A DNA stretch of 64,000 nucleotides, from positions 186,001-250,000 of the forward strand of contig CAJTDQ010000002.1 of NCBI GenBank assembly GCA_910574895.1. The letters are read 5' to 3'. Positions 9,185 to 34,769 of the stretch are shown here, one piece after another. The DNA comes from Eubacteriaceae bacterium (GTDB lineage: Bacteria; Bacillota; Clostridia; Lachnospirales; Lachnospiraceae). The translations under genes were made by a program, and so were the position numbers. Under the pieces are notes generated by a model. That model was not told where the DNA came from, made no database searches, and saw nothing but the letters and a program-made list of their open reading frames with translations. Positions within the stretch are counted from its first letter, which is position 1; every line of letters begins with the position of its first letter.

Positions 9185-9359
9185 ATTGTTTTTCGTTTAT
9201 CAAAATAATATTAGAAAGGGGTTTGATAAAACTCTCCTTTCTTCATATATAATTTTGTTGTATGTCATCTCTAATATCCCCCCACATACATAATAAAATA
9301 CACTTTTATTTTACATCTTTTCCCAAATATGTCAATTTGAGATTTTATTTTAATTACTC

Positions 9360-15528: not shown

Positions 15529-15586
15529 TAGAATAGGTTATTAAAATTTGATTCATTCATAGATATTGAAAGGAATACGAAATACA

Positions 15587-16498
15587 ATGAAAAAAAAACC
15601 TATAAGACATCACTATATCCCACAATTTATTTTAAGAAACTTCTGTTTTAATGACAAAAGCAACCTGTTTTTCTTTGACAAAAAAACTTCTAAAATGTTA
15701 ATTAAAAATACTAAGGATATCTTCATGGTTAAAAACCTGTATCGAGATGATATAAATAATCCTGATGAACCAGTAAAAATTGAGAAGGACTTGGCACGTT
15801 TTGAAAACGAAATATCTCAAATCATTACAAAAAAATTTCTTCATAACAACGAAATAACAATCAGTCTGAAAGATGACGAGAAAATAAAACTATTTTTTGC
15901 TGTTATGGCATTTAGATCAAATGGAACAAGAAGATTTTTTACTTCTAAGATGTCAGAAGAATCCAGGGCATTCTATTCCACATATCAAAAAAATGGAGAT
16001 TTGACAGATTTCTGGAAAAGAAACCTAAGCAATCTGGTTAATTGCAGGTCATTAAAAGATATAATACAACATACAGAGATTGATTTCCCCATTAAAGCCT
16101 TTTTTCAGAGAGATATTCTTGGATTATTTGGTCTTTACTTTATTGTTGTGGAAAGAAGAGGTCCCCTTGATTTTATTATAAGCGATGTTTATCCAACTGT
16201 TATTAGTGGAGAATTGGACGACGGATTAGAACTACCTCTATATAACATATTTCCAATTTCGCCAGACCGAATCATTCTAATTGCCTCTAATGGAATTGAA
16301 AGTGCATCGAAAAATATTGTTGTTCTTCCTGATAATATCTTAAAAAAACCCAAATTAAATCCTATTAAAAAAGAGATAACCATTCATGTTCGAAAAATAT
16401 ATGAAGATGAAGTACGACATTTAGATTCTATTCTAATAAAAGAGGCATCTGAAGGATTTGCATTTAAAACTAAACATAGGGTAATATTTCCAGCGTAA
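15587..16498 (+). CDS. DUF4238 domain protein
   Basis: 303 aa. The N-terminus HHYIPQFILRNF is the hallmark of DUF4238, with an FFDKK segment near residue 28. These proteins are frequent in defence islands and on mobile DNA; their biochemistry is not established, though the conserved His residues suggest a nuclease-like fold. The ATG is chosen because AAAGGA lies ~12 nt upstream; the frame is open 7 codons earlier only from a TTG. It is transcribed opposite to the dnd operon and sits at the far edge of the island next to several gene remnants. Confidence 0.85.
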   Translation: MKKKPIRHHYIPQFILRNFCFNDKSNLFFFDKKTSKMLIKNTKDIFMVKNLYRDDINNPDEPVKIEKDLARFENEISQIITKKFLHNNEITISLKDDEKIKLFFAVMAFRSNGTRRFFTSKMSEESRAFYSTYQKNGDLTDFWKRNLSNLVNCRSLKDIIQHTEIDFPIKAFFQRDILGLFGLYFIVVERRGPLDFIISDVYPTVISGELDDGLELPLYNIFPISPDRIILIASNGIESASKNIVVLPDNILKKPKLNPIKKEITIHVRKIYEDEVRHLDSILIKEASEGFAFKTKHRVIFPA

Positions 16499-16652
16499 AT
16501 TAATATTTTACTCAATAATAATTTTATAAAAAACAATTCAGAGACCTATGAAAAAAGTTTAAAAAGAATATTCAACAGACTTTATTACTGTTTTTGAAAA
16601 ATATGTAGAATATTTAGAAAATGAATATAAAAATGACTAGGAGAGTACTATT

Positions 16653-16966
16653 ATATACAGAAAAATTATTACGAAGAACAGATTATAAAAGATAAAAATT
16701 ATGAAAATATAACAAAAGAACAATGCAAATTTATAGACTGCACCTTTGAATACTGTTCCTTTGAAGAGTGCAATCTGCAGGAAAGCAATTTTAGGGATTA
16801 CCGATTAGAAGCTACTCAATTTTTTAAATGTGATATTCATAAAGCTGATTTTAGGAATGTTAAAGGATATGCGATAGATTTTCCTTCAAGTAAAATAAAA
16901 CAAGCAAAATTTTCATATTCAGAAGTTACGAGCTTGTTAGCATCTTTAGAAATAAAAATTGATTGA
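16653..16966 (+). pseudogene. Pentapeptide-repeat protein remnant
   Basis: A frame of ~104 codons without an ATG or other good start. It encodes a run of A(D/N)LxF-type pentapeptides: CKFIDCTFEYCSFEEC, then NLQESNF and KADFRN. It closes with a tail ending SLLASLEIKID, typical of Qnr/McbG-like pentapeptide proteins. An AGGAGAG ribosome site stands just upstream at ~16638-16644, but the codons after it are TAC TAT TAT ATA, so the initiator is lost. The repeat count is also short, as if the middle were deleted. Its end overlaps the end of the ion-channel remnant on the other strand. Confidence 0.75.
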
Positions 16967-17756: not shown

Positions 17757-18371
17757 TTAGTTTTTTTCACCTTTTCCGCTATTGGAAAACCAGTTATGAG
17801 AAGTAATAATCATAAATTCATCATCGATTATTAAAATCTTTGAATATAACAGTGGTTTATATTGCAAATCTGCTTCTATAATGTTTTTCAATTCTTCAAT
17901 TGCCCTTATATGTTTTTCCTTTTGCTCCCAAAACCAATCTCTGTTTACAATTTTATCAATTTCATCCAAATTATAATTAACTTTATTATGTTCAAAACAA
18001 ATTTTTATCGTTTTACATTGTTTCTTTATTTCTTGTATGTATTTTAAGAAATTTTGATTTACTACGTTAGCAGTAATCCATGGATTAATAATTTTAAGAG
18101 ATTTTGAAAAACATAACTGCATCTCTTCTATCTGTTCCTTATTCATTGTATTCGCTTCATACATTGAATATAATTTTCCATTTTCTCTTAAACATTTCGT
18201 TGATAATGAAAGATAATTTCCTGACTCATTACACGTTTCATAATTTCCTACTAAAATCAACTGTTTCTTGGCTCTAGTAAAAGCTACATTTAAACAATTA
18301 GGTTTATTTCCGACAAAATATGTTCCACTATTTTGCTTTGAATTATCCACCACCATACTCATTATAATCAC
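17757..18371 (-). pseudogene. C-terminal remnant of a superfamily 1 helicase fused to a PLD-like domain
   Basis: The ~204-codon frame begins in the middle of a helicase domain: YDVIIMSMVV (motif V side) and CLNVAFTRAKKQLILVGN (motif VI). After a spacer comes a phospholipase D-like half-site, YSKILIIDDEFMIITSHNW, where the first position of the HxK motif is Tyr instead of His. The preceding helicase motifs I-IV are absent, and the frame is closed by a stop ~50 bp upstream. The parent architecture, a UvrD/DNA2-like helicase with C-terminal PLD nuclease, is common among defence genes. Interpreted as a decayed neighbour of the dnd island. Confidence 0.7.
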
Positions 18372-18565: not shown

Positions 18566-18955
18566 TTACATATATTTTTTTATCATTTCATACGCCTCTT
18601 GTTTGATAACATCTGAATTTGTCAAATATTCATTCATCAACTCTTTCATCCATTTACTTTCGTGTCCTGTTATTTGTCCTTTATAGTCCGGATCGAAATG
18701 GCTTAAATTCTCTCTTTGAGCTTGAATCCCTCTGATATTTCTATATTTTTCACCAACATGATATTCTAGTCTTTTGCCACGCTTTCTGAGTAATTCGCTA
18801 ACGAAAACATCACTCTTCTTAATTTCTTGTGGTGACTTTTTATACAGAAAATACTCAACAATTAACAATACTTGCTCTTCCCTGTCCCATCCCGGCTGGG
18901 ATTGTGGCTTTTCAAAATTATCTTCATCATATTCTGATAATTGACTTCTTATCAT
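18566..18955 (-). CDS. Small HNH-associated-type protein coupled to dptH
   Basis: 129 aa, acidic/basic mixed, no membrane segment. The order WDREEQVLLIVEYFLY, SELLRKRGKR, EKYRNIRGIQAQRENLSHFDP resembles the domain that often precedes HNH or Mrr-like nuclease domains in restriction proteins (pattern RNxxGVxxKxxNFxxxDP). No nuclease motif follows. The ATG overlaps the dptH stop as ATGA, so translation is coupled, and it is the last gene of the dnd/dpt operon. It is not a standard dpt gene. An adaptor or DNA-recognition subunit for restriction is a reasonable guess. Confidence is high that it is a gene, low on function. Confidence 0.7.
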   Translation of the reverse strand: MIRSQLSEYDEDNFEKPQSQPGWDREEQVLLIVEYFLYKKSPQEIKKSDVFVSELLRKRGKRLEYHVGEKYRNIRGIQAQRENLSHFDPDYKGQITGHESKWMKELMNEYLTNSDVIKQEAYEMIKKYM

Positions 18956-21900
18956 ATTAATGTATCCCTTTCTTCAAATGGTATAATCGATGTTACAACT
19001 GGTGCAGATGGTCCTACAGTTCCATTTGATTTCATCTTATCTCCAACAGTAATACATTGTCCTTTTTTTAATTTTTGAACCTCTGGAATCCAATCAACTT
19101 CACCAGTGACATCTAATTGTTTTGCAGTTTTTATTATTTCATTATCCGTAGGCTTAAAATATAGTTTAAACGAGGCTTGTAATAATCTGACAATTTCATC
19201 ACTTTTTAATACCGCCAATGACTGTGTCGCAAACCATGCAGACCAACCAAATTTACGTCCCTCCGTCAATATAGCTGCACTAGGTGATTTCATTGCATGA
19301 GATAGGTTTTGTGCTTCATCTAGTACTACTACAAAAGGCTTATCTTTTGTCCCAAATTTCTTTGTATAATACCACGCATCCCACAGCATCATTTCAGTAA
19401 TGATAATTTTCATTTCTTGGGTAAACATAGCAAGCTGAATAATATTAACCTTCGAATCATCTGAGTACAATATATCCCCCCAATTGTATTTAGAATCGGA
19501 CGTGAAGTCCACAGTTCTAAAGAATGGAGACATTTTCGATAATACTGACTTTGCTGTCTTATTTTGTTCTACAATTTCCTCTAGTTCATCTTTAAATATT
19601 TTCATATTCATTTTATCATTATATTTTATTAATCCATTATATGCAGCATCAAAAATAGCTGCATATTGTTGATCTCCAAAGTCATAAACATGGGCAAAAA
19701 TATCTGCTAGTCTAGCTGCCACATCTGATTCCTTCTCCAAAATCATCTGACCAGCCAATTCGACTTGATGTCGCTGAAACGGATTAATGTGGACTCCTGT
19801 ACTATATACAATATGCTGATTAATCCTATTATCTAAGCCATCCTTAAATGATTGTTCAAGTTGCTGTTCCATAAAACCTTCTGTGTAATCAAATATAACA
19901 GAGGAAACTTTATATTTTGCCAATTCATACAACATAGTTTGAATACTATATGTTTTTCCCTGACCTGAGGTTCCTGTTATAAGCAAATGCCTATTTGCTA
20001 AAGCCTTATTTCCAAACTCCCAATATACCTGATGATTGTATTTATCCTTTCCAATCAAAACACGAACATCTGATTTTAAATTGTTGTCAAGCTCAGCTTT
20101 ATCTGCATTTGATTCTTCCAAAGCATTTCCCATGTCATTTGAAACCTCTTCACTTTTTTCCTCTACTATTTCGACTTCTTCATTATGCAGTTCAATAATA
20201 TCAGCAAGATTTTCTACTTCCACAACAAGCTGGAAATCTACTGTACTAATTTCTTTCATATCTGTTGCAAGCAAATTGACACCTTCTTTTTTGTTTTTTT
20301 CAACAATTAATACATCTTGGTTTAAGATTTCTCTTTCTTTCGTACACTCTTCTCTAAAAGATATTACTCCAGCTTTTCCCATCTTTGGAATTAGTAATTC
20401 AACTATTTCATATTCCTCATTTAGCAATTTCCTTCGTAAGTCTGTTTTAGTTACTGTTTTCCATACATCGTTATCCTTATCTACTTCATATAACATCATT
20501 TTTTCTGCATTAACCAAAACTTGCTGCATAAAGAAATTTCTAAAAAATCTGATCTTTATATTTTTCTGTAAACACGGTCCAAATTCTAAAATTTCATCAA
20601 ATATTTGTTTCGTCCTAAGTGCCTGTCTAATTCCTTTCTCAAGATAGTCTGACTCAACTTTTCCTATTTTAACTTCTATTGGATAAAATGTTATTTTTAC
20701 TTTTTCACCATTCAATATCCCTACCAAGAGCAAATCATCACTTGTTTGTCCTTCAAATCCCATATTCTTGGCGGAAAAAATAGACCCTCTCTGAGATAAT
20801 CCCACCGAACCAGAAACACGTAATATTTCCTCTAAAGAAACCGGAACCCAAATAACATTATCAATTGAATATCTTTTCACTGCTAATTTCATTGCGGATA
20901 AAATGCTTAATTTTTCAACTGGAAAATGTGATTTATATGAAAGCATACGTAGGAGCCAATCTCCATTCAACGCATTAAACATATTTATTATCTTCTTTGA
21001 ATTGCTTTGAACATCATTAACACCATTCGCTTCCAAATAACGAGATATTGCAATTTGATATTGCTTTGATTTTTTCGTTACTGTAATTGCATCATATCCA
21101 CTTGATGTCATGTTATACTGATCACTATAATGGATTATCAATAAATCCTTGGAACTTGAATCACTTTTAAAATAATTTAAATCTACTTTTGGATTAATAA
21201 ATGTAACCCAATTACTTGCTTCATATATTTTATCTAATATATTCTGTTCACTAACCCCCATCTTCAATGCATAGCAGGAACTGTTTCTATAGGTATCTCC
21301 ATTCATAGATGCATTCAATGAATTATAATCAACAGCAACTTTAAGTAATTTTGAATCCAAATTGGCATATTTTATTCCAAAACCAGTTCTATATGAATCT
21401 CCTAACATCTCAGATGGTACTCCAGAGGAGATCCCCCCCATAACAACACCAGATGGAATATCTCCCATTTCCGTTGTAATTGCTTGATGATCATCGTCCA
21501 ACTCCATAAAAGTAATATGCGCATACTCAAATGAATCTGTTAATTTTTTATAATAGAATTCGACATTATCCCTATAAACATGGATAACCTCTTCAACACT
21601 CATATTATCAACTTTTACTTCTATTCCCAAAGATTTTACCAATATTTCAGGGTTGTCAATTTGTGACATTAACTCAAATGCATTATCCATTTTTGAATCT
21701 TCATACATAGTAACCTGAATAGGGATAACATTCTTGTTTTTTGTAGTGTTTAATTCACGTATATAGTATTTAACCACTCCCTGTACTATTTCCCTACAAT
21801 CACCTGTATTAATCAAATTAATGCGTATAGGAGTACTTATATCTGCCGAAAACAAATAACTAAAATGTTCAACAAATTCTCTAATTTTTTCTGCTACTAA

Positions 21901-24087
21901 TTTTGAAACAAAATCTTTCGATCCTTTATATCTCGGCAAATCTTCTTCTACATATATTTTCCATTCTGGTGAATGAATTTGTTCAACAGGCATAAAAACA
22001 TTAGGGCTATTAGTTAATGGATCAATATTAATATAAGGAAGCAATGATGTGTGCTGAAATTTTCTGATTAGATCTGTTTCATTTTCGTCTATTCCATCTA
22101 TAATTTGATCGTTAATATATAATTGATAGGCAATATTGATAGGATGAAGTGGAGTCAATAAAATCTCCATATCACCATAACATTTTTTAATAACACCAAG
22201 CTTGAATAAACCTTTTTCTTCCTCAGTTAAATAGGCTCCTTCTTTAATCGAACCAGCTGCTTCAATCACCTCGTCTAAATATTTTTTATATAACGATTCT
22301 ATCTCACTACTTATATAAACCAAACTAGGTACTTCTTTTTTTGTTCTAAAATACTCTATAATTGCATCAAAAGCGACCCTCACTCCATCTGGAAGGCAAA
22401 TAGGTACTGATTCTAATTTTTCATCTGGTCCTTTCTCCTTGGCTAAAGGACTTCCCAATTTGATATATTTTTTTTCTAAAAATAAACTTTTTCGGAATTC
22501 GTCTCTTGTATAATATTTCTTTGTTCCAAATACAAGACTATTCTCCCCCTGCATTTCAAAATTACATTTCTTTGTTTTTTTCAAATACCATAGTTTCATT
22601 CCTTCAATTACTGTTGGTTTTTCAATTGCAAAAGTTTTAATTATAGGAATAACAAAATTGGTTGTAGATAATGTAAAGTACACATTTTCGTTATCTTCTT
22701 CGTATGGATATTCATCACTTATGCCTATCGAAAGAGAATCTTGTGCAGCTAATGAAACAACTTGATTATTTTCCGAAATGAAAATACTCTGCTTGTTAGA
22801 GCCATATTCATTTATTATTATTTCATCTTCTTCTGAATTTATTCTAATCGCATATTTATCTTTTATACGCATCTCGACAGAATATTGAGTCTTTATTGAT
22901 TCAAGCAATAGTGGATTACATCTTAATACTGCAATCTTGAATTCAAATTTTGTACCTTCAAATTCGTACTGAAAACGGCCAAACAATGCGACATCCTCTA
23001 TATCTGTTAGTTTTACAATCAATTTTTTTCCACTGCTAGTTACAGATAAAAATGATTGAAATTCTTTAAATATAGTAATACCAACACCTTTTGTAAATTC
23101 AGAGAACAATAACTGAAACTTAACTTGATCTTGGCTACTATCTATGAAAACTAATAAATTTCTTGTTCTACTTTTTACTTTTGATGTTCCTTCTTCTTTG
23201 TCCCATATTGTCGCATTCGAAATTATAGGATAGTATTCAATTGGCGATTGGTTTTTTTTACGATTAACATATTTTTCTACTTGTGAAAATCCTACATCTT
23301 TCCAATCGTCTTTCGAAAAAACTTTAGCTCCATCTTCTCCATATATATTTTCAAGTTTAGAAAAATCAGCTCCATAACTATGAATCTCAGATATTTTCAC
23401 AAAATGTTTGTGATTACTCTCCAATCTCTTTTTTAATTCAGTTCCAGACAACAAAGGCAATTTATCATCTGGAAATAACTCAAATTTTTTATATTCATCA
23501 GAAGTAATCTGTGAGTCAGCCAAACACTGTATTATATCTTCATACTCAAAAATAGTTGCAGTTGTTCCATCTAGTTCTTTACTTTTGTTTTCCAAATACT
23601 GTAAAAGAATTATCTTATCTAGATCACTATATCCTGTCTCATTAATTTTTCGATTAATGTCCATTTCTATAGTTGCGATATTTAAAGGCATACCTTCTTT
23701 TCCCAAAGAGCCTGCACCACCTAAAATACTATCTAAGGAAGAGCAATGAATAAATAATATTGCACTATTTTCGTAATCAGGATAAACACCAACCATATTT
23801 CTTAGCGTTGCTAAAAAATCAGGGTGTGGTCCTCCTTCCATTGCTGCAGCAACAATCAAATCAACATTTCCAAATGTCAACTTGTATGAATCGTATTTTT
23901 GCTTTCTCTCTTTATCTTCATATACAAATGAACTAGCGATAATATTTTTTTTCAATTCTTTATACAGATTTTTCACTTGCTCCTCTGTCTCAAATTGAAT
24001 ATAATATTTATCACCCGAATTAAGTTCATTAGTTTTAAAAAATGTTATTATTTTTTCAGATATATAACTATAAAATATATTTAACAT
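18952..24087 (-). CDS. dptH: DptH, HerA-like ATPase of phosphorothioate-dependent restriction
   Basis: About 1711 aa, the expected size for DptH. The large N-terminal part is family-specific. The C-terminal third is a HerA/FtsK-type ATPase, with Walker A ITGTSGQGKTYS near residue 1375 and Walker B FVVVLDEAQN near 1590. With DptF and DptG it restricts DNA lacking phosphorothioate marks. The frame is open to 24120 from a TTG; the ATG chosen here has GGGG 9 nt upstream and the next residues MLNIFYSYISEK look like a natural start. It overlaps the dptG stop by 20 nt. Confidence 0.92.
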   Translation of the reverse strand: MLNIFYSYISEKIITFFKTNELNSGDKYYIQFETEEQVKNLYKELKKNIIASSFVYEDKERKQKYDSYKLTFGNVDLIVAAAMEGGPHPDFLATLRNMVGVYPDYENSAILFIHCSSLDSILGGAGSLGKEGMPLNIATIEMDINRKINETGYSDLDKIILLQYLENKSKELDGTTATIFEYEDIIQCLADSQITSDEYKKFELFPDDKLPLLSGTELKKRLESNHKHFVKISEIHSYGADFSKLENIYGEDGAKVFSKDDWKDVGFSQVEKYVNRKKNQSPIEYYPIISNATIWDKEEGTSKVKSRTRNLLVFIDSSQDQVKFQLLFSEFTKGVGITIFKEFQSFLSVTSSGKKLIVKLTDIEDVALFGRFQYEFEGTKFEFKIAVLRCNPLLLESIKTQYSVEMRIKDKYAIRINSEEDEIIINEYGSNKQSIFISENNQVVSLAAQDSLSIGISDEYPYEEDNENVYFTLSTTNFVIPIIKTFAIEKPTVIEGMKLWYLKKTKKCNFEMQGENSLVFGTKKYYTRDEFRKSLFLEKKYIKLGSPLAKEKGPDEKLESVPICLPDGVRVAFDAIIEYFRTKKEVPSLVYISSEIESLYKKYLDEVIEAAGSIKEGAYLTEEEKGLFKLGVIKKCYGDMEILLTPLHPINIAYQLYINDQIIDGIDENETDLIRKFQHTSLLPYINIDPLTNSPNVFMPVEQIHSPEWKIYVEEDLPRYKGSKDFVSKLVAEKIREFVEHFSYLFSADISTPIRINLINTGDCREIVQGVVKYYIRELNTTKNKNVIPIQVTMYEDSKMDNAFELMSQIDNPEILVKSLGIEVKVDNMSVEEVIHVYRDNVEFYYKKLTDSFEYAHITFMELDDDHQAITTEMGDIPSGVVMGGISSGVPSEMLGDSYRTGFGIKYANLDSKLLKVAVDYNSLNASMNGDTYRNSSCYALKMGVSEQNILDKIYEASNWVTFINPKVDLNYFKSDSSSKDLLIIHYSDQYNMTSSGYDAITVTKKSKQYQIAISRYLEANGVNDVQSNSKKIINMFNALNGDWLLRMLSYKSHFPVEKLSILSAMKLAVKRYSIDNVIWVPVSLEEILRVSGSVGLSQRGSIFSAKNMGFEGQTSDDLLLVGILNGEKVKITFYPIEVKIGKVESDYLEKGIRQALRTKQIFDEILEFGPCLQKNIKIRFFRNFFMQQVLVNAEKMMLYEVDKDNDVWKTVTKTDLRRKLLNEEYEIVELLIPKMGKAGVISFREECTKEREILNQDVLIVEKNKKEGVNLLATDMKEISTVDFQLVVEVENLADIIELHNEEVEIVEEKSEEVSNDMGNALEESNADKAELDNNLKSDVRVLIGKDKYNHQVYWEFGNKALANRHLLITGTSGQGKTYSIQTMLYELAKYKVSSVIFDYTEGFMEQQLEQSFKDGLDNRINQHIVYSTGVHINPFQRHQVELAGQMILEKESDVAARLADIFAHVYDFGDQQYAAIFDAAYNGLIKYNDKMNMKIFKDELEEIVEQNKTAKSVLSKMSPFFRTVDFTSDSKYNWGDILYSDDSKVNIIQLAMFTQEMKIIITEMMLWDAWYYTKKFGTKDKPFVVVLDEAQNLSHAMKSPSAAILTEGRKFGWSAWFATQSLAVLKSDEIVRLLQASFKLYFKPTDNEIIKTAKQLDVTGEVDWIPEVQKLKKGQCITVGDKMKSNGTVGPSAPVVTSIIPFEERDTLI

Positions 24088-25450
24088 ATTGCGCATCCCC
24101 ACTATCTGATCTCTTTTCAAGCAAGTTCATTTTTTCAAAAAGTTCAACAATCCGTTTCTTTGATTCTCTATCAAAAAGAAGTCCTCTTTTTTCAAATTCC
24201 TCAAACAACTTCGTAAGCTTTATTTTTCCACTATATTCATTCAAAATAATTCTAGTAAACATTATTATGTCACTATCATAAACACTCAATGTATATCCAT
24301 ACATTCCTCTAAATTTACCAAAGTTCTTTTGAATAAAATTTATAAATTTTTTGTTATACCCATTATAATGAGACTTTCTTCCACCATTTATAAACTGGTA
24401 ATCTATTGTTTCAAATAGTTTTTTTATTTCCACTGACACTTTACATAATGTATCTTGATTCTCACTATATTTACATCCACTATAATCTAGCGGAATCCAC
24501 TCTTGATATAATTTCCGAAGATTCACTATTTCTTCGGCAACTTGACTATCATGTTCCGAATTGTTAAAGAGCTCGTAGAAACCAATATAATCAGTATGCA
24601 CAGAATCTTTATTGTGTGATAGCAATTCCATCACTACAGAATGTGAAAACATATTACTCATTTTATCCTTAACATATTTCCACCCGTATTCGTATCCTGG
24701 ACGTACCCTTGTTACTACTTCCTCATGTAGCGTAAGAAATATATTTTCAATTTCATTCTTATCGCCTTTTTCAAATTTGTTAAGTTTGACTGCTAACTGA
24801 GTTACATAGAACATATAATAGTATGCCAGAAATCTAGTTATATTATCCTGATACAATTTTGTATCTTTTATTAAAGTTTCAAAATCTTTAACAAACACTT
24901 TCTTAACATACGGCAAAAAACAATTCGCCGGAGCAATATTACTTACATTATCATTTTGATTTTCATCTAATGAATCAAATACGAGCATTTCTAATATATT
25001 TGTGTCTTCGGAATCCTGAATCTTTTTATAAGCTTCTTTCAAATTAGATTCTTCAACGAACAAACTATATATATACTCTGCAACCTGTTGTTGAGTAATA
25101 TTGCAGTCTATATAGCTTAATGCTTTAACATTAATCGGAAGAAGTTTTTTATTTACAAAATATATATCCTCAATAATGTAAAATAACTTTTCAAAGTTTT
25201 CATCTGTGCAGTCATCCATTTTTTCATGCATTCTTCTTTTTAATTCTTCAAAATCAAGTTTTTTCTTTGCAGGATTATCTGAAATAATGCGCGAAAACGC
25301 CCCAACTACTCCAGAAAAATCTTCATATTGATTTTTATCATTTTTTGTTCTAAACGGAACAAGTGCATCATCACCTTTATGCTTTTTATTTTTGTTAAAG
25401 ACATCATTAATTCCATTTTCATCTTCAAAAATGAACCATGTTTTTTCCAT
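24068..25450 (-). CDS. dptG: DptG, phosphorothioate-dependent restriction protein
   Basis: 460 aa, soluble. No enzyme motif is recognisable, as is usual for DptG. Identification rests on length, position between dptF and dptH, and the general run of the sequence, so it is partly by context. GAGGAG precedes the ATG, and the start overlaps the dptF stop by one base (TAATG), indicating translational coupling. The protein works with DptF and DptH in damaging DNA that lacks the dnd modification. Confidence 0.85.
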   Translation of the reverse strand: MEKTWFIFEDENGINDVFNKNKKHKGDDALVPFRTKNDKNQYEDFSGVVGAFSRIISDNPAKKKLDFEELKRRMHEKMDDCTDENFEKLFYIIEDIYFVNKKLLPINVKALSYIDCNITQQQVAEYIYSLFVEESNLKEAYKKIQDSEDTNILEMLVFDSLDENQNDNVSNIAPANCFLPYVKKVFVKDFETLIKDTKLYQDNITRFLAYYYMFYVTQLAVKLNKFEKGDKNEIENIFLTLHEEVVTRVRPGYEYGWKYVKDKMSNMFSHSVVMELLSHNKDSVHTDYIGFYELFNNSEHDSQVAEEIVNLRKLYQEWIPLDYSGCKYSENQDTLCKVSVEIKKLFETIDYQFINGGRKSHYNGYNKKFINFIQKNFGKFRGMYGYTLSVYDSDIIMFTRIILNEYSGKIKLTKLFEEFEKRGLLFDRESKKRIVELFEKMNLLEKRSDSGDAQYVKYIL

Positions 25451-27218
25451 TAATCATTCTCCTCAAAAGTATATCCATAATCTTCGTCATATGATAGACT
25501 ATATTCCTTTGCTAGTTTTTGAGATAAATCTCGAATAAATATCTTTTCCATTTTAGATCCACCTTGCGATATCTCATTAATAAATTCAACGCATTTAATA
25601 TTTACTCGTTTATCGTTTATATTAGGTACATATCCATTTAACACTCTCTTTAATAATTTGTATAAAGCGAAATCTACATCTAGCTCTGCTTCTTTATCTC
25701 CTGAGTATCTATACTTTAATCTTAGTTCATCTCTAAATATATTTAATTCTCCTTGTCCTAAATCAAGCAAATTATCAACACGCTTTTTAATCTCAATTTT
25801 TTGAACTAGATGAAAATCAGATTTTTTATTTCCAATAAACAATTGCATTTCGTCCTGATTTACCTTTCCATTCCATGCTAATACACCTTTTTCTACAACA
25901 TTATATACATCCTTCAATTCTCTATGATTTCCCGTATTCCATGAATATAATGCTCTCATATATTCTACATAATCTTCATCCTTTGGTAATAAATCTTCCC
26001 TTGACCCAGTCAACCAACAAGTTCTAACATATATTTTTAAAATTTCTTCTTTAACCAACTGCATTGACTTGTCCGAAAAATTTATATGTCTTAATCTTTC
26101 AATTAAAGATAAATAATCAGGTAAACCTCTATCATATATATCAATTACATCATCTGTATTTTCGTAAAAAACAAAAAAATCATCAATGTTTTCGTTTCTA
26201 ATTCTCATTGGATCAACACTAATCATAGAATCCAGCATCTCAGATGAATTTCTTTTTCCAAATAAAGTATTAGGTAATAGAGCTTCACAATAATTAACAC
26301 TATTAATTTTTTGAGGATTTTTTCTCGGCTCTAACGAACCTCTATCCCAATATCGTTCATCAACTATGATCTCGTAGATCATATTAAGCAATGCTCTTGT
26401 TGAAACTATCAATTTATTTTTCACTATATTTTCAACTAATGCATTCACAAGTCCTTGTTGAATTTTATTATCTGAAATCAATTCATAATTTGCTCTTACT
26501 GGACAATCTACCTTCGATGGGCAATCTACACAATTTTTGCAATATTCATTATAAAAAACATTTGTTGAATTCTTTGCAGTAATCTTATTTAAAATTCCTC
26601 TAATATATTTTGAAGACACTCCATCTTTTTCTAATTCATACAAATGATAATCAGCAAAATTAACACTATGAAAATTTTTACATTCCCCTACTGAACAAAT
26701 CATTTCATCTAAAATTCCAGTGTCATCTACATATTTTTTTAATTTAGCAAATCTTCCTTCCCCATCAGCTTCAAGAAAGTTACTCAATGTACCTAAATTA
26801 ATAGCTAAAATAACTTTTTTTACTGAACTATCAAGTTTTTCATCTGCAAAATCTTCCATTATTTCTTTAAGCGTATAGGCCGCCGGCTTATCAATATATA
26901 AACTTGCTGTTGAATCATTATGAACGTAAAACTTATCCATCATTTCCGGATAAACAGATTTACAATATGATAGAATATGTGATTTTCCGTCACCTACACT
27001 TCCACATAACAATATTAATTCTGCATCATTTGAATCATAAGTTTTTTTAGTATAGAAACAAACCTATCTTGTACCGCTCTATCTACATGCATATACATTG
27101 TGTAGTTGTCCGTTTCAGTAGAATCTGCAGATACAACTGCCTCTTTTGAAGATTCTCTCAACCTTGCTAAAATATTCGCAAAACAATTTTGGTTATCTGA
27201 TGTACTCTGAAAATCCAT
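25450..27218 (-). CDS. dptF: DptF, ATPase of phosphorothioate-dependent restriction, frameshifted
   Basis: Two frames together give a full DptF. The first encodes ~59 residues from the ATG at 27218 (frame closes at 27015) and ends VQDRFVSILKK. The second carries TYDSNDAELILLCGSVGDGKS onward, with the Walker A GSVGDGKS, and continues 500+ residues to 25450. A Cys cluster (CKNCVDCPSKVDCP) lies mid-protein. The frames join by a -1 shift at an A7 run (27042-27048). The downstream frame has an ATG-less entry just before the P-loop. The alternatives are a true mutation, phase variation, programmed slippage or a base-calling error. Start chosen by AAGGTGG ~9 nt upstream; an ATG 8 codons earlier overlaps dndA. 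Confidence 0.85.
27042..27048 (-). other. A7 slippery run at the dptF frameshift
   Basis: T7 on the plus strand. Reading cta aaa aaa ctt stays in the short frame that stops at 27015; slipping back one base gives aaa aaa act tat and the conserved continuation into the Walker A motif. No obvious stimulatory stem-loop follows, and no clear internal ribosome site precedes it. Confidence 0.8.
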
Positions 27219-27234
27219 ATTATCATCCACCTTT

Positions 27235-28428
27235 TCAAACATTACTTTTTATTGTCGAAACAAGAAAATCTATGTCATCTTTTGTCGTATATTTATTAAT
27301 AGTAACACGCAAAACTTTTGCAACTTTCTTCTCTAACCCCATAGCACTTATTACATACGATGGTTCCCCCGCACTACATGCAGAACCACTTGACATAGCA
27401 ATTTGTTCACTAATTCTTTTTAAAAATCTTTCATTATAAAAATTAGGTAATTGAATTATCATACTAATCAATCCGGGCATTCTATTGGAAGATGGATTTG
27501 TTAATTTTACATATCCTAAATCCAATAACTTGCTAATCGCATATGTATCCAAATCTTTTATTATCTTTTCATTTTTTTCCAAATCTCTTTTTGCGATTTC
27601 TGCAGCTTTTCCGAATCCAACTATGTTATGTACAGCTAACGTTCCAGCTCTAAATCCGAACTCTTGCTCTCCTCCATGTAATAAAGCTGTTATAGGAGAT
27701 ATTCCATAATCATCACTCATTAGATATGCAGCTCCTATTCCTTTGGGTCCATACAGTTTATGCGCAGAACATGAAGCATAATCAATACACATTTCTTTTA
27801 CATCAATTGGTATTTTCCCAAATGATTGTGTAATATCAGCATGAAAAACTATGTTTCTTTCATGACACTTTTTAGATAATTCAGTAATGTTATTTATTGT
27901 CCCCACTTCATTATTAACATGAATGACTGATACCATTGCTGTGTTTTCTTTTATAAGCTCTTCAATGGTTTTAGATTTTACCTCTCCAGTTTGAGAAACA
28001 TCCGCAAAACTTGCTTCAAATCCTCTATCAACAGATTTAAATTCATTAAATAACGAAAATGTTGGATCGTTGTTCGAATAAATTTCTCCATTTAGATACT
28101 TGCATGTATTTAATGTTGCCTTATGCTCTACTTTAGAAGTAATAATATGATTTTTCCCGTCTAAATAATACTTTCTATAATCTAGATATCCTTTTATAAT
28201 AAAACTTGTACTTTCAGTAGCTCCTGCAGTAAATATAATTTCCTCAGATTTTGCTCCCATCAATTGAGCAACCTTTTCACGCGCTTCTTCAACTGCATCC
28301 TGAGCTGTTTTTGCTTTGACATAATACTTGCTTGATGGATTTCCATATTCTTCTTTTAAATATGGCATCATTGCATCTAACACTTCTTCATCAACCGGAG
28401 AAGTTGCACTATTATCCAAATAAATCAT
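27235..28428 (-). CDS. dndA: DndA, cysteine desulfurase
   Basis: 397 aa, PLP-dependent IscS/NifS class. It begins MIYLDNSATSP, shows the PLP-binding lysine in SAHKLYGPKG near residue 205 and the catalytic cysteine loop SSGSACSAGEPS near 330. DndA takes sulfur from cysteine and passes it, via the DndC iron-sulfur protein, to the DNA backbone. It is encoded inside the dnd operon rather than relying on a housekeeping IscS, and lies between dndE and dptF, a junction between modification and restriction genes. A weak AGATAGG site precedes the start. Confidence 0.92.
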   Translation of the reverse strand: MIYLDNSATSPVDEEVLDAMMPYLKEEYGNPSSKYYVKAKTAQDAVEEAREKVAQLMGAKSEEIIFTAGATESTSFIIKGYLDYRKYYLDGKNHIITSKVEHKATLNTCKYLNGEIYSNNDPTFSLFNEFKSVDRGFEASFADVSQTGEVKSKTIEELIKENTAMVSVIHVNNEVGTINNITELSKKCHERNIVFHADITQSFGKIPIDVKEMCIDYASCSAHKLYGPKGIGAAYLMSDDYGISPITALLHGGEQEFGFRAGTLAVHNIVGFGKAAEIAKRDLEKNEKIIKDLDTYAISKLLDLGYVKLTNPSSNRMPGLISMIIQLPNFYNERFLKRISEQIAMSSGSACSAGEPSYVISAMGLEKKVAKVLRVTINKYTTKDDIDFLVSTIKSNV

Positions 28429-28457
28429 AATTAATACCTATCTCTTTCTTTGCAAAA

Positions 28458-28838
28458 TTATACTGTATCTCCAATACCAAGAGTCTGCAATACATACTTA
28501 TCAACACTACCTGCGTGATTATACATATCCATCAACAATTCACTTCCTCTGTCAATATGTGCCTTTACATACTTTGGAAAAAACTCTTCATCTGATAATC
28601 CTCTACCCTCAATTGTTTCTATTAATATTTTAAAGAAAACTTCATTATCTCCAGTTATTGTTTGTCTATTTAAATCTAATCCTTCGGAATCCGATACAAA
28701 TCCTTCTACTGATGTATTTTCTTTAATAGACCAGGCGATAGCGTGCTTAACCAAAGTATATGGCTTATAATTTGTTCTCGCTTCTAACTCTTCAAAAATC
28801 TCTTGTGTTCTTTTTGATGTCTTTAGTCTAAATATCAT
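28458..28838 (-). CDS. dndE: DndE, DNA sulfur modification protein
   Basis: 126 aa, normal for DndE. The sequence MIFRLKTSKRTQEIFEELE and the lysine-bearing start fit the ribbon-helix-helix-like family that binds nicked double-stranded DNA as a tetramer. GAGGAG precedes the ATG, and the dndD stop is inside that ribosome site, so the two are tightly coupled. It works with DndC and DndD to insert sulfur at specific sites. Confidence 0.9.
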   Translation of the reverse strand: MIFRLKTSKRTQEIFEELEARTNYKPYTLVKHAIAWSIKENTSVEGFVSDSEGLDLNRQTITGDNEVFFKILIETIEGRGLSDEEFFPKYVKAHIDRGSELLMDMYNHAGSVDKYVLQTLGIGDTV

Positions 28839-28841
28839 TTA

Positions 28842-30986
28842 CTACTCCTCAAAAAAATAATGTTCTTCTACCGATGTTCTATTCTGGTTTTCATCATTAA
28901 CAAGCATATATTCTTTTGCAATATGAGGCTTTAAAATATTATAATATTCTTCATTAACCTCTTCATCTGTCGATAGAATGATAACCTGCTTGCTAATGCT
29001 AGGAAAAAATTTCTCTGATATTTCTTTTCTATGATTTGCATCTATTCTTGCATATGGTGTATCAATAATAAAAGGAATATCTTGACCTGAAAGCATTATA
29101 ATGGCCCAATACAAAGATAGAATGAATATCTGTCTTTCACCTTTTGATAACCTACTCAACTCAATTTTTTTATATAATGAAAATTTTTTCTTTTCATCAC
29201 CTTTTTCAATCTTATGACGAACTTCAGAAAGATTGCTTGCTGACATTTTTTCAAAAAGCTGTTTTGTTCCCTGTTCTCCAATTAACTCACCAAATTCTGA
29301 ATTACCTAAGTTTTTTATTAAATATAAAAGCTCATTATTGTTATAAACTTCATCTTGATACAATTTAAATTGAAAATCCTCAGTTATTTCAACATGAGTA
29401 ATTAAATTGTTCTTTCGATATATATGTTTGAGGTTTTGAACAACTAATTCCTCTAATCTTAATCTCATAGCAATAGTCTTATTCTTTAACAATTCTTCCA
29501 TCACTTTTGATAACCCAGCACTTAATTCATATACATGTTTGTTTTGTGCCTTTAATTTAATGCTTTGGAAAATTCGTTCTTTTAGCTGCTGTTGAGTCTG
29601 TAATTCATCCTCAATATCACTACTGCTTTTTTGTGCTTCATATAGTTTAGCCACTAGTACTTCCTTTTCTCTTAACAAGAGATTTTCTCTTTCTGCAAAT
29701 TTTATAGCATCTTCCTCTCTCATTGCACTCTTCAATATTCGGTTAATATTCACAGTAACTACAGATGCTTCCATTCTTTCTTTGACTGCTTTAACTATTT
29801 CATCAATATCAAAGTTTTCGATAGAAGAAATAATTCCATGAGCATAATTCATCTCCGCTTTTGAAAGATCAAAAATAACCTCTTTGCTATTATAATTTCC
29901 TTCTGGCTTAAATTTTCCAAGAATCATTTCTAACAGTCTATTTGCCAATTCTGTATTTGAAACATCCTCTTTCGACAAATACTCTTTTATATCATCCACA
30001 ACTAATTTTTTAGATATGTAATCGTATATTTTTTCTTTTTCTTCGTAGTTAATTTGTTCTTTTATTTTTGGTGCAAATTCTCTCACTATCAAAAATGGCA
30101 TCATGCCTTCAACGAATATCTTCATTTTGACTACTGATTCAACTTTCTTTGATTCTGCCGCTTTATATCTTTTCTGCAATTCCTTTCGTTCTTTCTCTGT
30201 TATTCCTCCTGCATTTTTAAACTCTGTTTCTAATTCTGTTAATTTAATCCCAAGACTATTAAGAGTATCTTGAGTCTCTTCTATTTCTTTTAAAAGACTC
30301 TTTTCTCTTACTTCAAGTCTCTCTACTTCTTTCTTTGCCACTTCAAATTCAATATATAAATTATCATTCTCTTCATCACTTGTCTTTGATATATATCCTT
30401 TTGTGTATTTTCTAATTATTTCAAAAATATCCATTCCACACAATGTGAATACAGCATTTTTTACATATGTATTATATGAACTAGTTGAAAATATGTTACC
30501 GACTTCTTCTCCATCAAACAAGAAAAATTCAAACAAATCTGGAGGAACAATACTCTGCAAATAATTTTGAAAATATGATAATTCTTGCTGCGATAATTTT
30601 TTCCCTTCCTTTTCAACGTAATATTCTTCGCTTAATTTTTTCTTTGAATAATTCCATTTTCGAGTGATAATATATTCTCTCATTTCACGCTCTTTTTTAA
30701 GAGATATTGTTATTTGAACTTCAGTTTCAACTTTATCCTGCTGAAATGCTTTTGAATTAATCAAATCTTTTATTTTCATTATATAATGCGAATTCACACC
30801 AACATATCCATATGCCAGCGGTCCATATAGCGCAACCTTTATCGCAGTAAACAGTGAAGTCTTTCCTGCACCATTTTTTCCTCCAATGAGAATAATATTC
30901 CTATTTTTATCATCACACCTAAAATCAAAAACATTCTCACCTTCATAAGAACTAAAATTATATAATTTTATTTTATTTATCTTCAT
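28842..30986 (-). CDS. dndD: DndD, SMC/Rad50-like ATPase of DNA sulfur modification
   Basis: 714 aa. The N-terminal Walker A reads GGKNGAGKTSL near residue 40. Long coiled coils occupy ~190-300 and ~420-520. The C-terminal half has the ABC signature LSKGERQIF near 610 and Walker B PFIIDTPYARID near 635. It is thought to alter DNA structure or nick the strand during sulfur insertion. The ATG used follows AAGGAG by 7 nt; the frame is open two codons earlier from a TTG. It overlaps the dndC stop by 14 nt. Confidence 0.93.
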   Translation of the reverse strand: MKINKIKLYNFSSYEGENVFDFRCDDKNRNIILIGGKNGAGKTSLFTAIKVALYGPLAYGYVGVNSHYIMKIKDLINSKAFQQDKVETEVQITISLKKEREMREYIITRKWNYSKKKLSEEYYVEKEGKKLSQQELSYFQNYLQSIVPPDLFEFFLFDGEEVGNIFSTSSYNTYVKNAVFTLCGMDIFEIIRKYTKGYISKTSDEENDNLYIEFEVAKKEVERLEVREKSLLKEIEETQDTLNSLGIKLTELETEFKNAGGITEKERKELQKRYKAAESKKVESVVKMKIFVEGMMPFLIVREFAPKIKEQINYEEKEKIYDYISKKLVVDDIKEYLSKEDVSNTELANRLLEMILGKFKPEGNYNSKEVIFDLSKAEMNYAHGIISSIENFDIDEIVKAVKERMEASVVTVNINRILKSAMREEDAIKFAERENLLLREKEVLVAKLYEAQKSSSDIEDELQTQQQLKERIFQSIKLKAQNKHVYELSAGLSKVMEELLKNKTIAMRLRLEELVVQNLKHIYRKNNLITHVEITEDFQFKLYQDEVYNNNELLYLIKNLGNSEFGELIGEQGTKQLFEKMSASNLSEVRHKIEKGDEKKKFSLYKKIELSRLSKGERQIFILSLYWAIIMLSGQDIPFIIDTPYARIDANHRKEISEKFFPSISKQVIILSTDEEVNEEYYNILKPHIAKEYMLVNDENQNRTSVEEHYFFEE

Positions 30987-32361
30987 TTTCAAGCTCCTTC
31001 AAGATATCATAATGAAGCCATTGCTGATTTAACAAGCGATCTATGCCTTCTTTAAGTATTCTCTGATTTGAATAATTCTTATTATGATATACAGATAAAA
31101 TCACGTTTCTCACTAAATCAAAATGGATATGATTCTTTTTAGCAAGTTCTTCTAATTCTAGAAGTGTTTCTGAATCAATCAAAGATTCTTTATAATCATA
31201 CCAAGGCAATTTCTCACCTGTAATCTCTTCATACAATTCTATGAGCGTTCTACGTGACAAATCAAGTTCATCATCCCATATCTCATCAATTGCTTTTAAT
31301 TCATCAATTGTTATCAACTCATAATCCATCTTTTTTTGGGTTTCAATCAACTTTGACAAAATTAATTTTCTGGCTTCCCAGGTAAATGGTCCATAGCCAA
31401 TATTTCCCTCTCTATCTTCGTAAACAGAACCGTTTCTTTTCCTTTTTTCTCTATATTCAGGAATATCACGAATTGACATTAGCCATTTTCTGAATTCAGC
31501 CAGTGGTATTAACTCTCTATGTCCACTCTTTATAAATCCATTCAAAGATTTGTCTTCTTTAACTACAGTACAAACCCAACAACCAAATCGTGAATTTCCA
31601 CAACTTTGAGTCTGTCCTCCTGCTTGAGTTCCCGCAAAAGGACATTCTCCACTATCTGCATCTGCGTATAAACTTACTAATTCAGAGTTATCTGTTCCCC
31701 ACGGAGTTTTACCTCCATCCAATCTTAATAAAACATCCCATACATCTTCAGTAGTAAGTTCTACTATTGGATTATATACATATGCATCCTGTATAGTTTC
31801 ATGTCGGTTCAGCAATCTATTAGCCAACTCTCTTCCTTCAATTCTTCTTTTTCGTGCAATACTCTCTGCTTTTCTTACTCCCAAGAGAACAACTACCTCT
31901 TCTGATTCATTTTGTATTATTTCACGAATATACTCAGCACTGGGATTAATTTTCAGCTTATCAGTACACCATCTGAATGAACCGTTCATTCTAGGCGTAG
32001 GATAACCTCTTCCAATAACATTTGCCCAAAATGAGTTATTCGCCGGTGGAGTAACCATAACGGATTTAATAGGTAACCCATCTCTTTTTGCTGCATTACC
32101 TAGCGCCTCATTCATCCTAGCCAAATATATTTTTATTAATGGGTTTTCTATCAACGTGTCAGATGACACAATGTAAACGTTTTTTCTTCTCTCAGCTGGT
32201 TTCAATTCTAACAACATTTTATATACCAGTTCCACTACCGTTGTAGAATCTTTTCCTCCACTATAACCAATGACCCATGGTCTCTTGTCCGACTGATATA
32301 CATACTTTATTTCATCAATCAACTCCTCCAATGTATTCTCGTTAAAAAAACTATTTTGCAT
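30973..32361 (-). CDS. dndC: DndC, PAPS-reductase-like sulfurtransferase
   Basis: 462 aa. The PP-loop SGGKDSTT is at residues 34-41. Cysteines near ~215-250 (GECPFAG, QSCGN, FGCWVC) fit the ligands of the 4Fe-4S cluster known for DndC. It has ATP pyrophosphatase activity and activates the DNA phosphate for sulfur attack. The start overlaps the xre stop by one base (TAATG), so the regulator and modification genes form one transcription unit. Confidence 0.94.
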   Translation of the reverse strand: MQNSFFNENTLEELIDEIKYVYQSDKRPWVIGYSGGKDSTTVVELVYKMLLELKPAERRKNVYIVSSDTLIENPLIKIYLARMNEALGNAAKRDGLPIKSVMVTPPANNSFWANVIGRGYPTPRMNGSFRWCTDKLKINPSAEYIREIIQNESEEVVVLLGVRKAESIARKRRIEGRELANRLLNRHETIQDAYVYNPIVELTTEDVWDVLLRLDGGKTPWGTDNSELVSLYADADSGECPFAGTQAGGQTQSCGNSRFGCWVCTVVKEDKSLNGFIKSGHRELIPLAEFRKWLMSIRDIPEYREKRKRNGSVYEDREGNIGYGPFTWEARKLILSKLIETQKKMDYELITIDELKAIDEIWDDELDLSRRTLIELYEEITGEKLPWYDYKESLIDSETLLELEELAKKNHIHFDLVRNVILSVYHNKNYSNQRILKEGIDRLLNQQWLHYDILKELENEDK

Positions 32362-32684
32362 TATTGTTTTCCCTGATGTTGAGCTACCTTATCTAGCAAG
32401 TCATAACTCAATTCCTTTCCTTCATCATCTAACGTTGAGATAATGTTCATTATACGTTTTTCAATGCTATTTTCATTATCTACGTTGAAATGTCTACCAA
32501 CAAGTTCATCTAATGACATTTCATATAAATCAGCAAGCCTCTTTAATAAATCTATGTCTGGAGATGTTTCCCCTCTTTCTATATTGCTAATAACTTGCTG
32601 TGAAACATCAAGTGCTTTTGCAATATCTTTTTGTTTATATTCTTTTTCATTTCTAATTTTTGCTAACCTTTCTCCTAATTTCAT
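32361..32684 (-). CDS. XRE-family regulator at the head of the dnd operon
   Basis: 107 aa. The helix-turn-helix is clear at residues ~5-60: LAKIRNEKEYKQKDIAKALD, then VSQQVISNIERGETSPDID. The remaining ~45 residues form an acidic tail that may dimerise. It occupies the position where many dnd clusters carry dndB, and no DndB homologue is present. Most likely it binds the palindromic DNA upstream and controls both itself and the divergent PP-loop gene. GAGGAT lies ~10 nt upstream of the ATG. Confidence 0.92.
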   Translation of the reverse strand: MKLGERLAKIRNEKEYKQKDIAKALDVSQQVISNIERGETSPDIDLLKRLADLYEMSLDELVGRHFNVDNENSIEKRIMNIISTLDDEGKELSYDLLDKVAQHQGKQ

Positions 32685-32736
32685 AGTTCGATTATCCTCA
32701 TTAACGCATGCTATTTAATTAAAATTTACCTACTAT

Positions 32737-32804
32737 ATTATACAATATTTTTTTGTATTATCATAGTTGACTAACAACATTCTTGTGTATTATAATATTT
32801 ACAA
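32737..32804. promoter_or_regulatory. Divergent promoters with candidate XRE operators
   Basis: Plus strand: TTGACT (32767-32772), 18-bp spacer, TATAAT (32791-32796), driving the 333-aa gene. Minus strand: a TATAAT at 32737-32742 fits xre. A palindrome ATACAA-n7-TTGTAT (32740-32758) covers the xre -10, and TTGT...ACAA arms (32783-32804) straddle the other -10. Autoregulation by the XRE protein would explain this layout. Confidence 0.6.
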
Positions 32805-32847
32805 ATATATTGTTATTTTAAATTAATTTAAAAAGGAGAAAACAATA

Positions 32848-33849
32848 ATGATTTGTAAAAAATGTGGAGAACTCATAAGTGACAAAAACAAATATCCTTC
32901 TGATTCTAGGTATTGTCTTTCATGTGGATTAGATCGCTCCGAATTTATTAAGTTTAGGAAAAAAACCTTAAAATCTCTTCGTGACATGAATCTTGAATCA
33001 AAAATAATTCAAACCAAATACCTAATTAAACAAGCTGTTCATGAATTTGGAATTGATCATGTTTATATTTCATATTCTGGCGGAAAGGATTCTACCGTTT
33101 TATCACATATTGCAAAACAAATATATCCAAATATTTTGCACATATTTTCAAACACTACCAATGAGTATCCTGAAACTCTACAACATATAAAATGGGAAAT
33201 CGAAGAAAATGGAAGTAACATATTAGTCGTTTATCCTAAAGATAAAAGTGGTAATATTTGGACATTTAAAAAAGTAGTCGAATACTACGGTTATCCTATG
33301 TTCTCAAAGCGAGTTGCAAATGCGATTAGAACATATCAACATGCTCGTTCTCCTAAAACAAAACAAAATTCGCTAGATTATATCAATCGTAATTTCAAAA
33401 AATACGAAAAATATATAACGCTTCCAATATCAGATAAATGCTGTGACAAATTAAAAAAAGAACCTCTTCGAAAAAAAGCTAAAGAATTAGGATTAAACTG
33501 CGCAATACTAGGTCTTCTTGCCTCCGAAAGCTATCAACGTGAAAAAGATTGGATTGAATATGGTTGTAACGTATTCTATGTAAGAAAAGATAATCAATGT
33601 CGACCACTTTCTTTTTGGACAGATGAAGACATACTTGAATATATAAAAAAGTATAATGTAAAAATATCTGAATTATATAGCATGGGATATATCAGAAACG
33701 GATGTATGTACTGTGGTTTTGGTGTTCATCTCGAGCCTGATAGTAATAATCGGTTTCAAATATTAAAACAAACTCATCCTAAACAATATAATTATTTTAT
33801 TAACAACTTTGGTGATTTAATGGTAGAATTTAATATTAATGTTTGTTAG
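32848..33849 (+). CDS. Second PAPS-reductase-like PP-loop protein with N-terminal zinc ribbon
   Basis: 333 aa. Residues 3-26 hold CxxC and CLSC pairs, a probable zinc ribbon. The PP-loop SGGKDST is at 77-83. A C-terminal CMYCGFG motif near 290 follows RNGC, so there may be a metal or Fe-S site as in phage-type phosphoadenosine reductase-like proteins. It is not DndC: it is shorter, has a different cysteine layout, and DndC is already present. Strong AAGGAG site ~11 nt upstream. It is divergent from xre and may be controlled by it. Possible role in sulfur or nucleic-acid modification, inferred from the fold and neighbours only. Confidence 0.75.
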   Translation: MICKKCGELISDKNKYPSDSRYCLSCGLDRSEFIKFRKKTLKSLRDMNLESKIIQTKYLIKQAVHEFGIDHVYISYSGGKDSTVLSHIAKQIYPNILHIFSNTTNEYPETLQHIKWEIEENGSNILVVYPKDKSGNIWTFKKVVEYYGYPMFSKRVANAIRTYQHARSPKTKQNSLDYINRNFKKYEKYITLPISDKCCDKLKKEPLRKKAKELGLNCAILGLLASESYQREKDWIEYGCNVFYVRKDNQCRPLSFWTDEDILEYIKKYNVKISELYSMGYIRNGCMYCGFGVHLEPDSNNRFQILKQTHPKQYNYFINNFGDLMVEFNINVC

Positions 33850-33986: not shown

Positions 33987-34769
33987 TTATTTTCTTTCTA
34001 TTACAGCATTTATATTCATTGTTATAGGTACATGAGATACTTTATAAGATTCCTCATCGAATGGTCTTATTCTTAAATTATATCTTTGACATGGAGTATG
34101 AAAAGAAATATCTTTAAGACAAATCCTCCCTTCATTTTGATATTTGTATTCTGGAAACTTATAAAATAATTCTTTATAATCTTTCGTTGGTTCAATGAAA
34201 AATGTATCTTTCTTAAACTCTTCATAATCTACATTTCCCATTCTGAATCCTAAACCTTTATTAGCCATAGCCTCTCTAACTCTCATAACAAATGTTTGTG
34301 GCTGTATTGCTATTTGTGAAAACTGAAATTCATTTCTTACCACATTTGGTGCAATTAAAGAATCACTAAATCCATTATAAAGTAAATCATTAAATTTATG
34401 TTTCAATGTTTGCTCCCCTATTTTATATATCTCATTTTCATTTAACAAATCTTTAACTCTAATTGTATAAAAACAAAATATAGGCTTTAATTTAGCACTC
34501 CTTCTTCTCAATAATATTCTATTGTCAATTTCAAATATTTCTAAATCTTTTCCTAATTTCTTTTTCATCTCACTGATTCTTTTATCGTTAGTATCTAATC
34601 TTGCAAAAATACCTTCATATGGATCCCCTTGTACTAAATTTCCTAATGCTATAGCTTGATTAACAAAAGCTCCTGCACATGAAAAACTTAATTCTCCATC
34701 AATTATTTTATCAATCCATCTTTGTTCACTGAATTTAAATATTTGTACTGCATGATCATTCGGTATCAT
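33987..34769 (-). CDS. Uncharacterised 260-aa protein
   Basis: Not recognised with confidence. It is a soluble protein with no signal peptide. The N-terminal region QIFKFSEQRWIDKIIDGELSF followed by a DPYEG segment resembles hypothetical proteins of phages and integrative elements that begin with a short 'F-S-x-x-R-W' stretch. The C-terminus (RICLKDISFHTPCQRYNLRI) has no motif I can name. A GAGGGA ribosome site precedes the ATG. It sits between the IS remnant and the guaA terminator, so it is probably the last cargo gene of the island on this side. Confidence 0.7.
   Translation of the reverse strand: MIPNDHAVQIFKFSEQRWIDKIIDGELSFSCAGAFVNQAIALGNLVQGDPYEGIFARLDTNDKRISEMKKKLGKDLEIFEIDNRILLRRRSAKLKPIFCFYTIRVKDLLNENEIYKIGEQTLKHKFNDLLYNGFSDSLIAPNVVRNEFQFSQIAIQPQTFVMRVREAMANKGLGFRMGNVDYEEFKKDTFFIEPTKDYKELFYKFPEYKYQNEGRICLKDISFHTPCQRYNLRIRPFDEESYKVSHVPITMNINAVIERK

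Follow-up and report, generated by a model that had tools for sequence, protein, structure and literature searches.

The window analysed here is a stretch of 64,000 nucleotides from a Eubacteriaceae bacterium of the family Lachnospiraceae (contig CAJTDQ010000002.1 of assembly GCA_910574895.1, positions 186,001 to 250,000 of the forward strand). Between its positions 18566 and 33849 lies a genuine Dnd-Dpt operon, a system of known kind in which DndA, DndC, DndD and DndE would put phosphorothioates into host DNA and DptF, DptG and DptH would restrict DNA without the mark. Eight minus-strand genes and one small gene lie in this interval, neighbours overlapping or standing no more than 29 bases apart; at the XRE-dndC and dptF-dptG junctions stop and start overlap in a TAATG. 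The order proposed in a first-pass annotation, xre-dndC-dndD-dndE-dndA-dptF-dptG-dptH-129 aa, with overlaps or very short gaps at most junctions, was borne out, with all of these genes on the minus strand; in profile searches every protein claimed for the Dnd/Dpt system matched its family.

The operon is headed by an XRE/Cro-type helix-turn-helix protein of 107 amino acids (aa; 32361-32684), which matches Pfam HTH_3 (61 bits) and, under the cut-off of 80, the NCBIfam RstR-like family (73 bits). It is followed by dndC (30973-32361), encoding a PP-loop sulfurtransferase with an SGGKDS motif and five cysteines that scores 407.6 bits with NCBIfam TIGR03183 (curated cut-off 290.4), and by dndD (28842-30992), encoding an ABC-type ATPase with a Walker A motif at residue 38 (TIGR03185, 339.6 bits against a cut-off of 245.85). 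The product of dndE (28458-28838) passed Pfam PF08870 (82.6 against 25 bits) and failed the NCBIfam equivalog (40.6 against 71.85), completing the DndC, DndD and DndE set. The required cysteine desulfurase is encoded by dndA (27235-28428); TIGR03235 is its best NCBIfam match yet stays under the cut-off (358 against 480), and PADLOC names it DndA at 402.8 bits, with SspA at 400.9. The restriction proteins DptF, DptG and DptH occur together, all above their NCBIfam cut-offs. The dptF region (25450-27218) is read in two frames, of which the main piece, an open frame of 537 codons at 25450-27063 that holds the protein from the Walker A motif GSVGDGKS onward, scores 249.8 bits with TIGR03238 (cut-off 50), is named DndF by PADLOC and found no match in a PDB sequence search. 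Next come dptG (24068-25450; TIGR03236, 135.2 bits against 20) and dptH (18952 to about 24096; TIGR03237, 656.2 bits against 620.65), which contains a HerA/FtsK-type ATPase domain (PF01935, 47.2 bits) with the Walker A motif GTSGQGKT and whose start at 24096 is our choice, the mechanical open reading frame (ORF) beginning at 24120. The last gene (18566-18955) overlaps dptH by 4 bases and encodes a 129-aa protein of no known family. On the plus strand, divergent from XRE and sharing its promoter region, lies a gene for a 333-aa PP-loop protein resembling phosphoadenosine phosphosulfate (PAPS) reductases (32848-33849; PF01507, 85 bits; phrog_424, 159.7 bits), which was missing from the earlier gene list though it falls inside the coordinates of that list.

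The modification and restriction families are those of the Dnd-Dpt system of Salmonella enterica Cerro 87, from which the window differs in that no DndB was found, in an XRE head, dndA inside the operon, a dptF split in the assembly and dptFGH genes that are collinear and downstream, the Salmonella genes being divergent (PMC4507180). All of the families also occur on the Priestia megaterium plasmid pBMG4, whose record annotates a pyridoxal phosphate enzyme after dndE; that locus is DndB-headed, its dptFGH genes are divergent and its dptF is annotated as one gene. The nearest relative is a Lachnospiraceae metagenome-assembled genome (JAAUZX010000064.1; L015), with proteins 64-87% identical and the same order, XRE-dndC-dndD-dndE...dndA-dptF-dptG-dptH beside a divergent PAPS-reductase-like gene; it differs in its one-frame dptF, in two further genes that separate dndE from dndA (for a 207-aa protein and a member of the DndB/DpdB family) and in having no match to the 129-aa gene. 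A genome of the same family, G284, has XRE-dndC-dndD-dndE-dndA and the divergent gene (DndC 80%, DndE 84% identical), but Dpd-like neighbours (DpdE, DpdF and DpdH-like) and no DptFGH match. The nearest DndB-headed relative is a dndBCDEA locus from the same order (G492; DndC 59%, DndE 65%, DndA 55% identical), in which DndB stands first and the stretch read holds no XRE or dptFGH match. The same-strand arrangement of modification and restriction genes with dndA inside, another point of the first-pass annotation, held up. Clusters with both modules on one strand are also seen in relatives: the four other loci with DptFGH beside dndC (L010-L013) have dptFGH ahead of dndB and dndC and in their orientation.

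An XRE gene in the place of DndB

No match to DndB (PF14072) was detected in the whole assembly (2.48 Mb, 27 contigs, 98.87% complete), and the promoter-proximal position that DndB can hold, a feature not strictly defining for Dnd systems, is occupied by XRE, as had been noticed at first reading. Searches for DndC covered 397 family genomes, giving 21 matches at 1e-40 with the source genome included, and 392 genomes of the order, giving 3 at 1e-100 with the source genome again included, which brought in G492; the 21 loci counted below are the dndC loci other than that of the window, L015 being additional and from another collection. DndB lies directly before dndC in 17 of these 21, XRE in one (G284), and neither within 1.5 kb upstream of dndC in three (L020, L023 and L032). 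One of these three, in G405, has an XRE-like gene on the opposite strand about 7 kb beyond dndC. In L015 XRE likewise stands at the cluster head, and the orthologues in the same place (66% identical in L015, 45% in G284) conserve the recognition helix VSQQ.ISNIE. On a DndC tree of 23 rows, rooted by midpoint only and with the distant DndC locus G738 left out, the three XRE loci form one group (support 99/97) beside two DndB-headed loci, one of which (L018) is on a long branch. A single switch from DndB to XRE is the simplest reading of this tree.

In each of the three XRE loci the PAPS-reductase-like gene is transcribed away from XRE, and the region between the two genes contains two palindromes shared by the three. 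TACAA-N7-TTGTA (32741-32757), proposed as an operator over a promoter-like site of XRE, is found at the same offset in all three loci with a spacer that differs in each, and its frequency in shuffles of single intergenic sequences was 0.0009-0.0029. TTGTA-N12-TACAA (32783-32804), exact in L015 and G284 and with one mismatch in the window, is proposed as an operator over the divergent promoter, for which a sigma-70-like site, TTGACT-18-TATAAT (11/12), lies at 32767-32796 on the plus strand. Both palindromes overlap promoter-like sites on either strand. These features suggest a model where XRE most likely binds the two palindromes and, when bound, would hold down both its own operon and the divergent gene. 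The arrangement would resemble the logic of DndB in Salmonella, carried out by a different protein: there, according to PMC4507180, the promoter of dndB itself contains a pair of palindromic TACG-N10-CGTA boxes to which DndB binds, and loss of DndB raises dndCD transcripts about 15-fold. With position, clade and candidate sites shared by the XRE loci, an XRE repressor probably took over control of the promoter once in this lineage, replacing promoter-proximal DndB.

Several observations weigh against this view. The XRE loci number just three; the palindrome patterns were picked after the sequences had been viewed, and their conservation may partly reflect shared descent. Although 32741-32757 is the sole exact copy of TACAA-N7-TTGTA in the window, the genome as a whole has 17 such sites and 10 of the reversed control, so that the motif is not specific by itself. 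The second palindrome, once a mismatch is allowed, turns up 7 times in the window where 5.2 are expected and so is not rare, and with 7 promoter-like sites found in this region against 2.8 expected, single sites are weak evidence. DndB-family genes are, moreover, retained elsewhere in the cluster in two of the three loci, the window alone having none: L015 has one between dndE and dndA (PF14072, 58.5 bits; PADLOC DpdB 66.5, DndB 25.9) and G284 has one at the far cluster end (PADLOC DndB, 85 bits). An XRE at the front thus need not replace every role of DndB. Its absence is not unusual either, since DndB is reported in 51% of taxa having modification genes (PMC10853773). In L015 the DndB-family protein, which is DpdB-like (7322-8440), adjoins the 207-aa protein, membrane-like by eye (6699-7322). 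The first-pass annotation also held that control here must differ from the known model. No DndB was found in the assembly and XRE sits in its place, but altered control is an inference, given the DndB-family genes kept by L015 and G284.

XRE could instead be a passenger, or could control the divergent neighbour alone, with the dnd genes under another promoter or regulator. The phage-type RstR repressor family, although under its cut-off, is the best NCBIfam match of XRE, and the retained DndB-family genes of L015 and G284 would fit this alternative as well. Set against it are the XRE-dndC pair, kept in all three loci, and the overlap of the two genes in the window, which leaves no intergenic gap; we regard it as improbable. 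In the literature searched, no description of an XRE-headed dnd operon was found, the one paper that mentions both dndC and XRE (PMC12429752, on prophages) using the terms in unrelated senses. The phosphorothioation regulator described in that literature is DndB, so that an XRE-headed lineage with candidate operators would offer a testable second solution.

Two reading frames in dptF

The first-pass annotation called the operon complete, a label that does not fit this assembly, in which dptF is broken. Both dptG and dptH are open, whereas the dptF sequence is divided between two frames that diverge at a run of seven A (27042-27048), just upstream of the Walker A motif. The gene as listed lacks its N-terminus: the first start in its open frame is a TTG at 27012, three residues before Walker A, and family profiles begin on the main piece at position 36 (TIGR03238) and position 52 (PADLOC DndF). 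The missing N-terminal piece sits upstream in a frame of its own (27015-27218; 67 aa from an ATG at 27218 to a stop ending at 27015), preceded by a ribosome-site-like AAGGTGG and 69% identical over 59 aa to the N-terminus of L015 DptF. In L015, to which the main piece is 71% identical, dptF is a single frame of 588 aa without an A run at this point. DptF was found in 6 of the 397 family genomes, the source genome included, and the other five have open frames of 578-587 codons, making dptF single-framed in all six relatives examined. Judged from the domain description in PMC10853773, a TTG-initiated product would be without the N-terminal helices, and the first strand of its P-loop fold would be incomplete.

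With the frame lost before the ATP-binding motif, the modification arm would work and the restriction arm would be off or weak. The genome is thus likely to modify its DNA while lacking full restriction, with assembly error or slippage as alternatives. The break rests on one assembly, and dptG and dptH are both open. Nonsynonymous change (pN) is low between window and L015 in the dptF main piece, dptG and dptH, at 0.16-0.17 against synonymous change (pS) of 0.70-0.75, so that any loss of restriction would be recent. These three points count against a loss.

The foremost alternative is a sequencing or assembly error in the A run, the system itself being intact. The break falls exactly in a homopolymer, and both the open dptG and dptH and the single dptF frame of all six relatives are what an intact system would give. 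The window, however, contains 67 A/T runs of at least seven, 55 of which lie inside open ORFs in our list (among the run-bearing ORFs counted, that at 17757-18371 is a gene fragment); errors of run length are therefore not general here, though a single one is still possible. We consider such an error unlikely, if a serious contender.

Less probable again, and in our view doubtful, is a functional break, in which ribosomal −1 frameshifting or polymerase slippage on the A run would yield some full-length DptF, or a reversible change of run length would switch restriction on and off. Read as CTA AAA AAA, the site gives an A-AAA-AAA heptamer in the correct phase for the downstream frame, and the downstream frames are well kept. 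L015, by contrast, the single relative with which the DNA itself was compared, does not share the A run, downstream RNA structure is not unusual (z 0.17 and 0.54), and seven A are, as a matter of general knowledge, short for slippage. A programmed −1 frameshift was rejected on the grounds that the heptamer, though present, is not conserved in L015 and has no stimulatory structure. No Rfam family was matched at gathering scores within 14000-38000. Still more remote is a two-layer control, in which XRE, standing in for DndB, would determine how strongly the entire unit is expressed, while the A run would meter or switch restriction independently of modification by letting just a small share of ribosomes, transcripts or cells make full DptF.

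The broken dptF carries a caution, since annotation as a complete defence system would be wrong for the genome as sequenced, and modification-only states may escape notice when gene presence alone is counted.

A probable insertion spot at guaA

The operon lies beside guaA in a region of low GC content, which is 0.28-0.33 from about 16 to 34 kb and climbs to 0.37-0.43 from guaA onward. A phage integrase identified by Pfam is found about 0.5 kb past guaA in two congeners, G012 (L061) and G009 (L064), which suggests that the guaA spot is prone to insertion in the genus. DptF scored above cut-off in one of 23 genomes of the genus, that of the window itself. The congener G017 is 98% identical over 2.1 kb at guaA, and its match to the operon is limited to one stretch of less than 50 bases in a genome that is 65% complete; G012 has no match to the operon and G022 has four short stretches of less than 60 bases. 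The Dnd-Dpt island was probably acquired by transfer.

Other features of the region speak against this origin. GC content is also low at about 10-16, 54-56 and 61-64 kb of the window. Two tests gave no attachment (att) repeat: the guaA 3' end has a single copy, both when up to 3 mismatches are allowed in the window and when up to 2 are allowed in the genome, and direct repeats within 1-37000 are short and unconvincing. No integrase gene was seen among the part of the island ORFs that was searched. In further searches the 64-kb window gave no tRNA genes. Viral contigs held no close relatives of dptF or dndC, and plasmids gave no near DNA match; plasmid records with a DndC protein numbered 39, none of them reaching 60% identity, and the gene neighbourhood was read in two. 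We assign a probability of about 0.6 to the explanation as a whole, a transferred Dnd-Dpt island with XRE in the place of DndB and restriction off or weak through the dptF break.

Restriction partners and neighbouring genes

Searches by tblastn around the 21 other dndC loci revealed a DpdH-like gene at 11, DptFGH at 4, a PbeA-type PLD-helicase at 4 and none of these at 2. Each count is a lower bound, because the sequence covered was some 10-20 kb per locus and in places ran up against a contig end, and several of the loci are close kin. DpdH-like genes stand beside dnd in L037/L049 (G284) and L040/L050/L097 (G275), and further such loci are L087, L088, L089 and L091-L096 (G103, G207, G318, G360, G325, G378, G089, G181 and G054). 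PADLOC named DpdH in all four cases tested (G275, G207, G325 and G378), DpdE and DpdF in G284 and G207, and PbeA and PbeC in G365. The literature searched yielded no description of DpdH together with phosphorothioation, and none of DpdE or DpdF with phosphorothioation or dndC among the matches listed.

The PAPS-reductase-like gene has orthologues divergent from XRE in L015 and G284. In G284 a stop codon interrupts the gene; selenocysteine was rejected as an explanation of this in-frame TGA, which aligns to an arginine in the window. G243, a genome without a dndC match at 1e-40, holds a lone PAPS-reductase-like fragment, 74% identical (L057, about 9145-9543), perhaps the scar of a lost cassette. 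With one copy interrupted (G284) and another reduced to a fragment (G243), the gene may be dispensable.

The 129-aa protein had no match in Pfam at 0.01, NCBIfam or PHROGs; weak matches were obtained with PADLOC (E 0.004), Pfam RE_Bpu10I (E 0.022) and PDB sequences, and single-sequence structure prediction was poor (mean pLDDT 43.5, pTM 0.30), so that no fold is claimed. Homologues 31-37% identical lie in G275 (L040 6468-6803), at the end of the Dpd-like module facing dndA, and in G132 (L048 9418-9786), after a row of BrxP-like, SspA-DndA-like, PbeA and PbeC genes; of 200 genomes sampled from the family, just two, G132 and that of the window, gave matches.

Next to the operon, at 17757-18371, lies what looks like the remains of a further defence gene: a C-terminal fragment that aligns with the last part of MkoC (positions 904-1105 of 1136 in the PADLOC profile, 95.5 bits). 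The low-GC flanks also carry genes listed at 15566-16498, 16637-16966 and 33987-34769, for a DUF4238 protein, a pentapeptide-repeat protein and, third in that list, a 260-aa protein with weak resemblance to phrog_26561.

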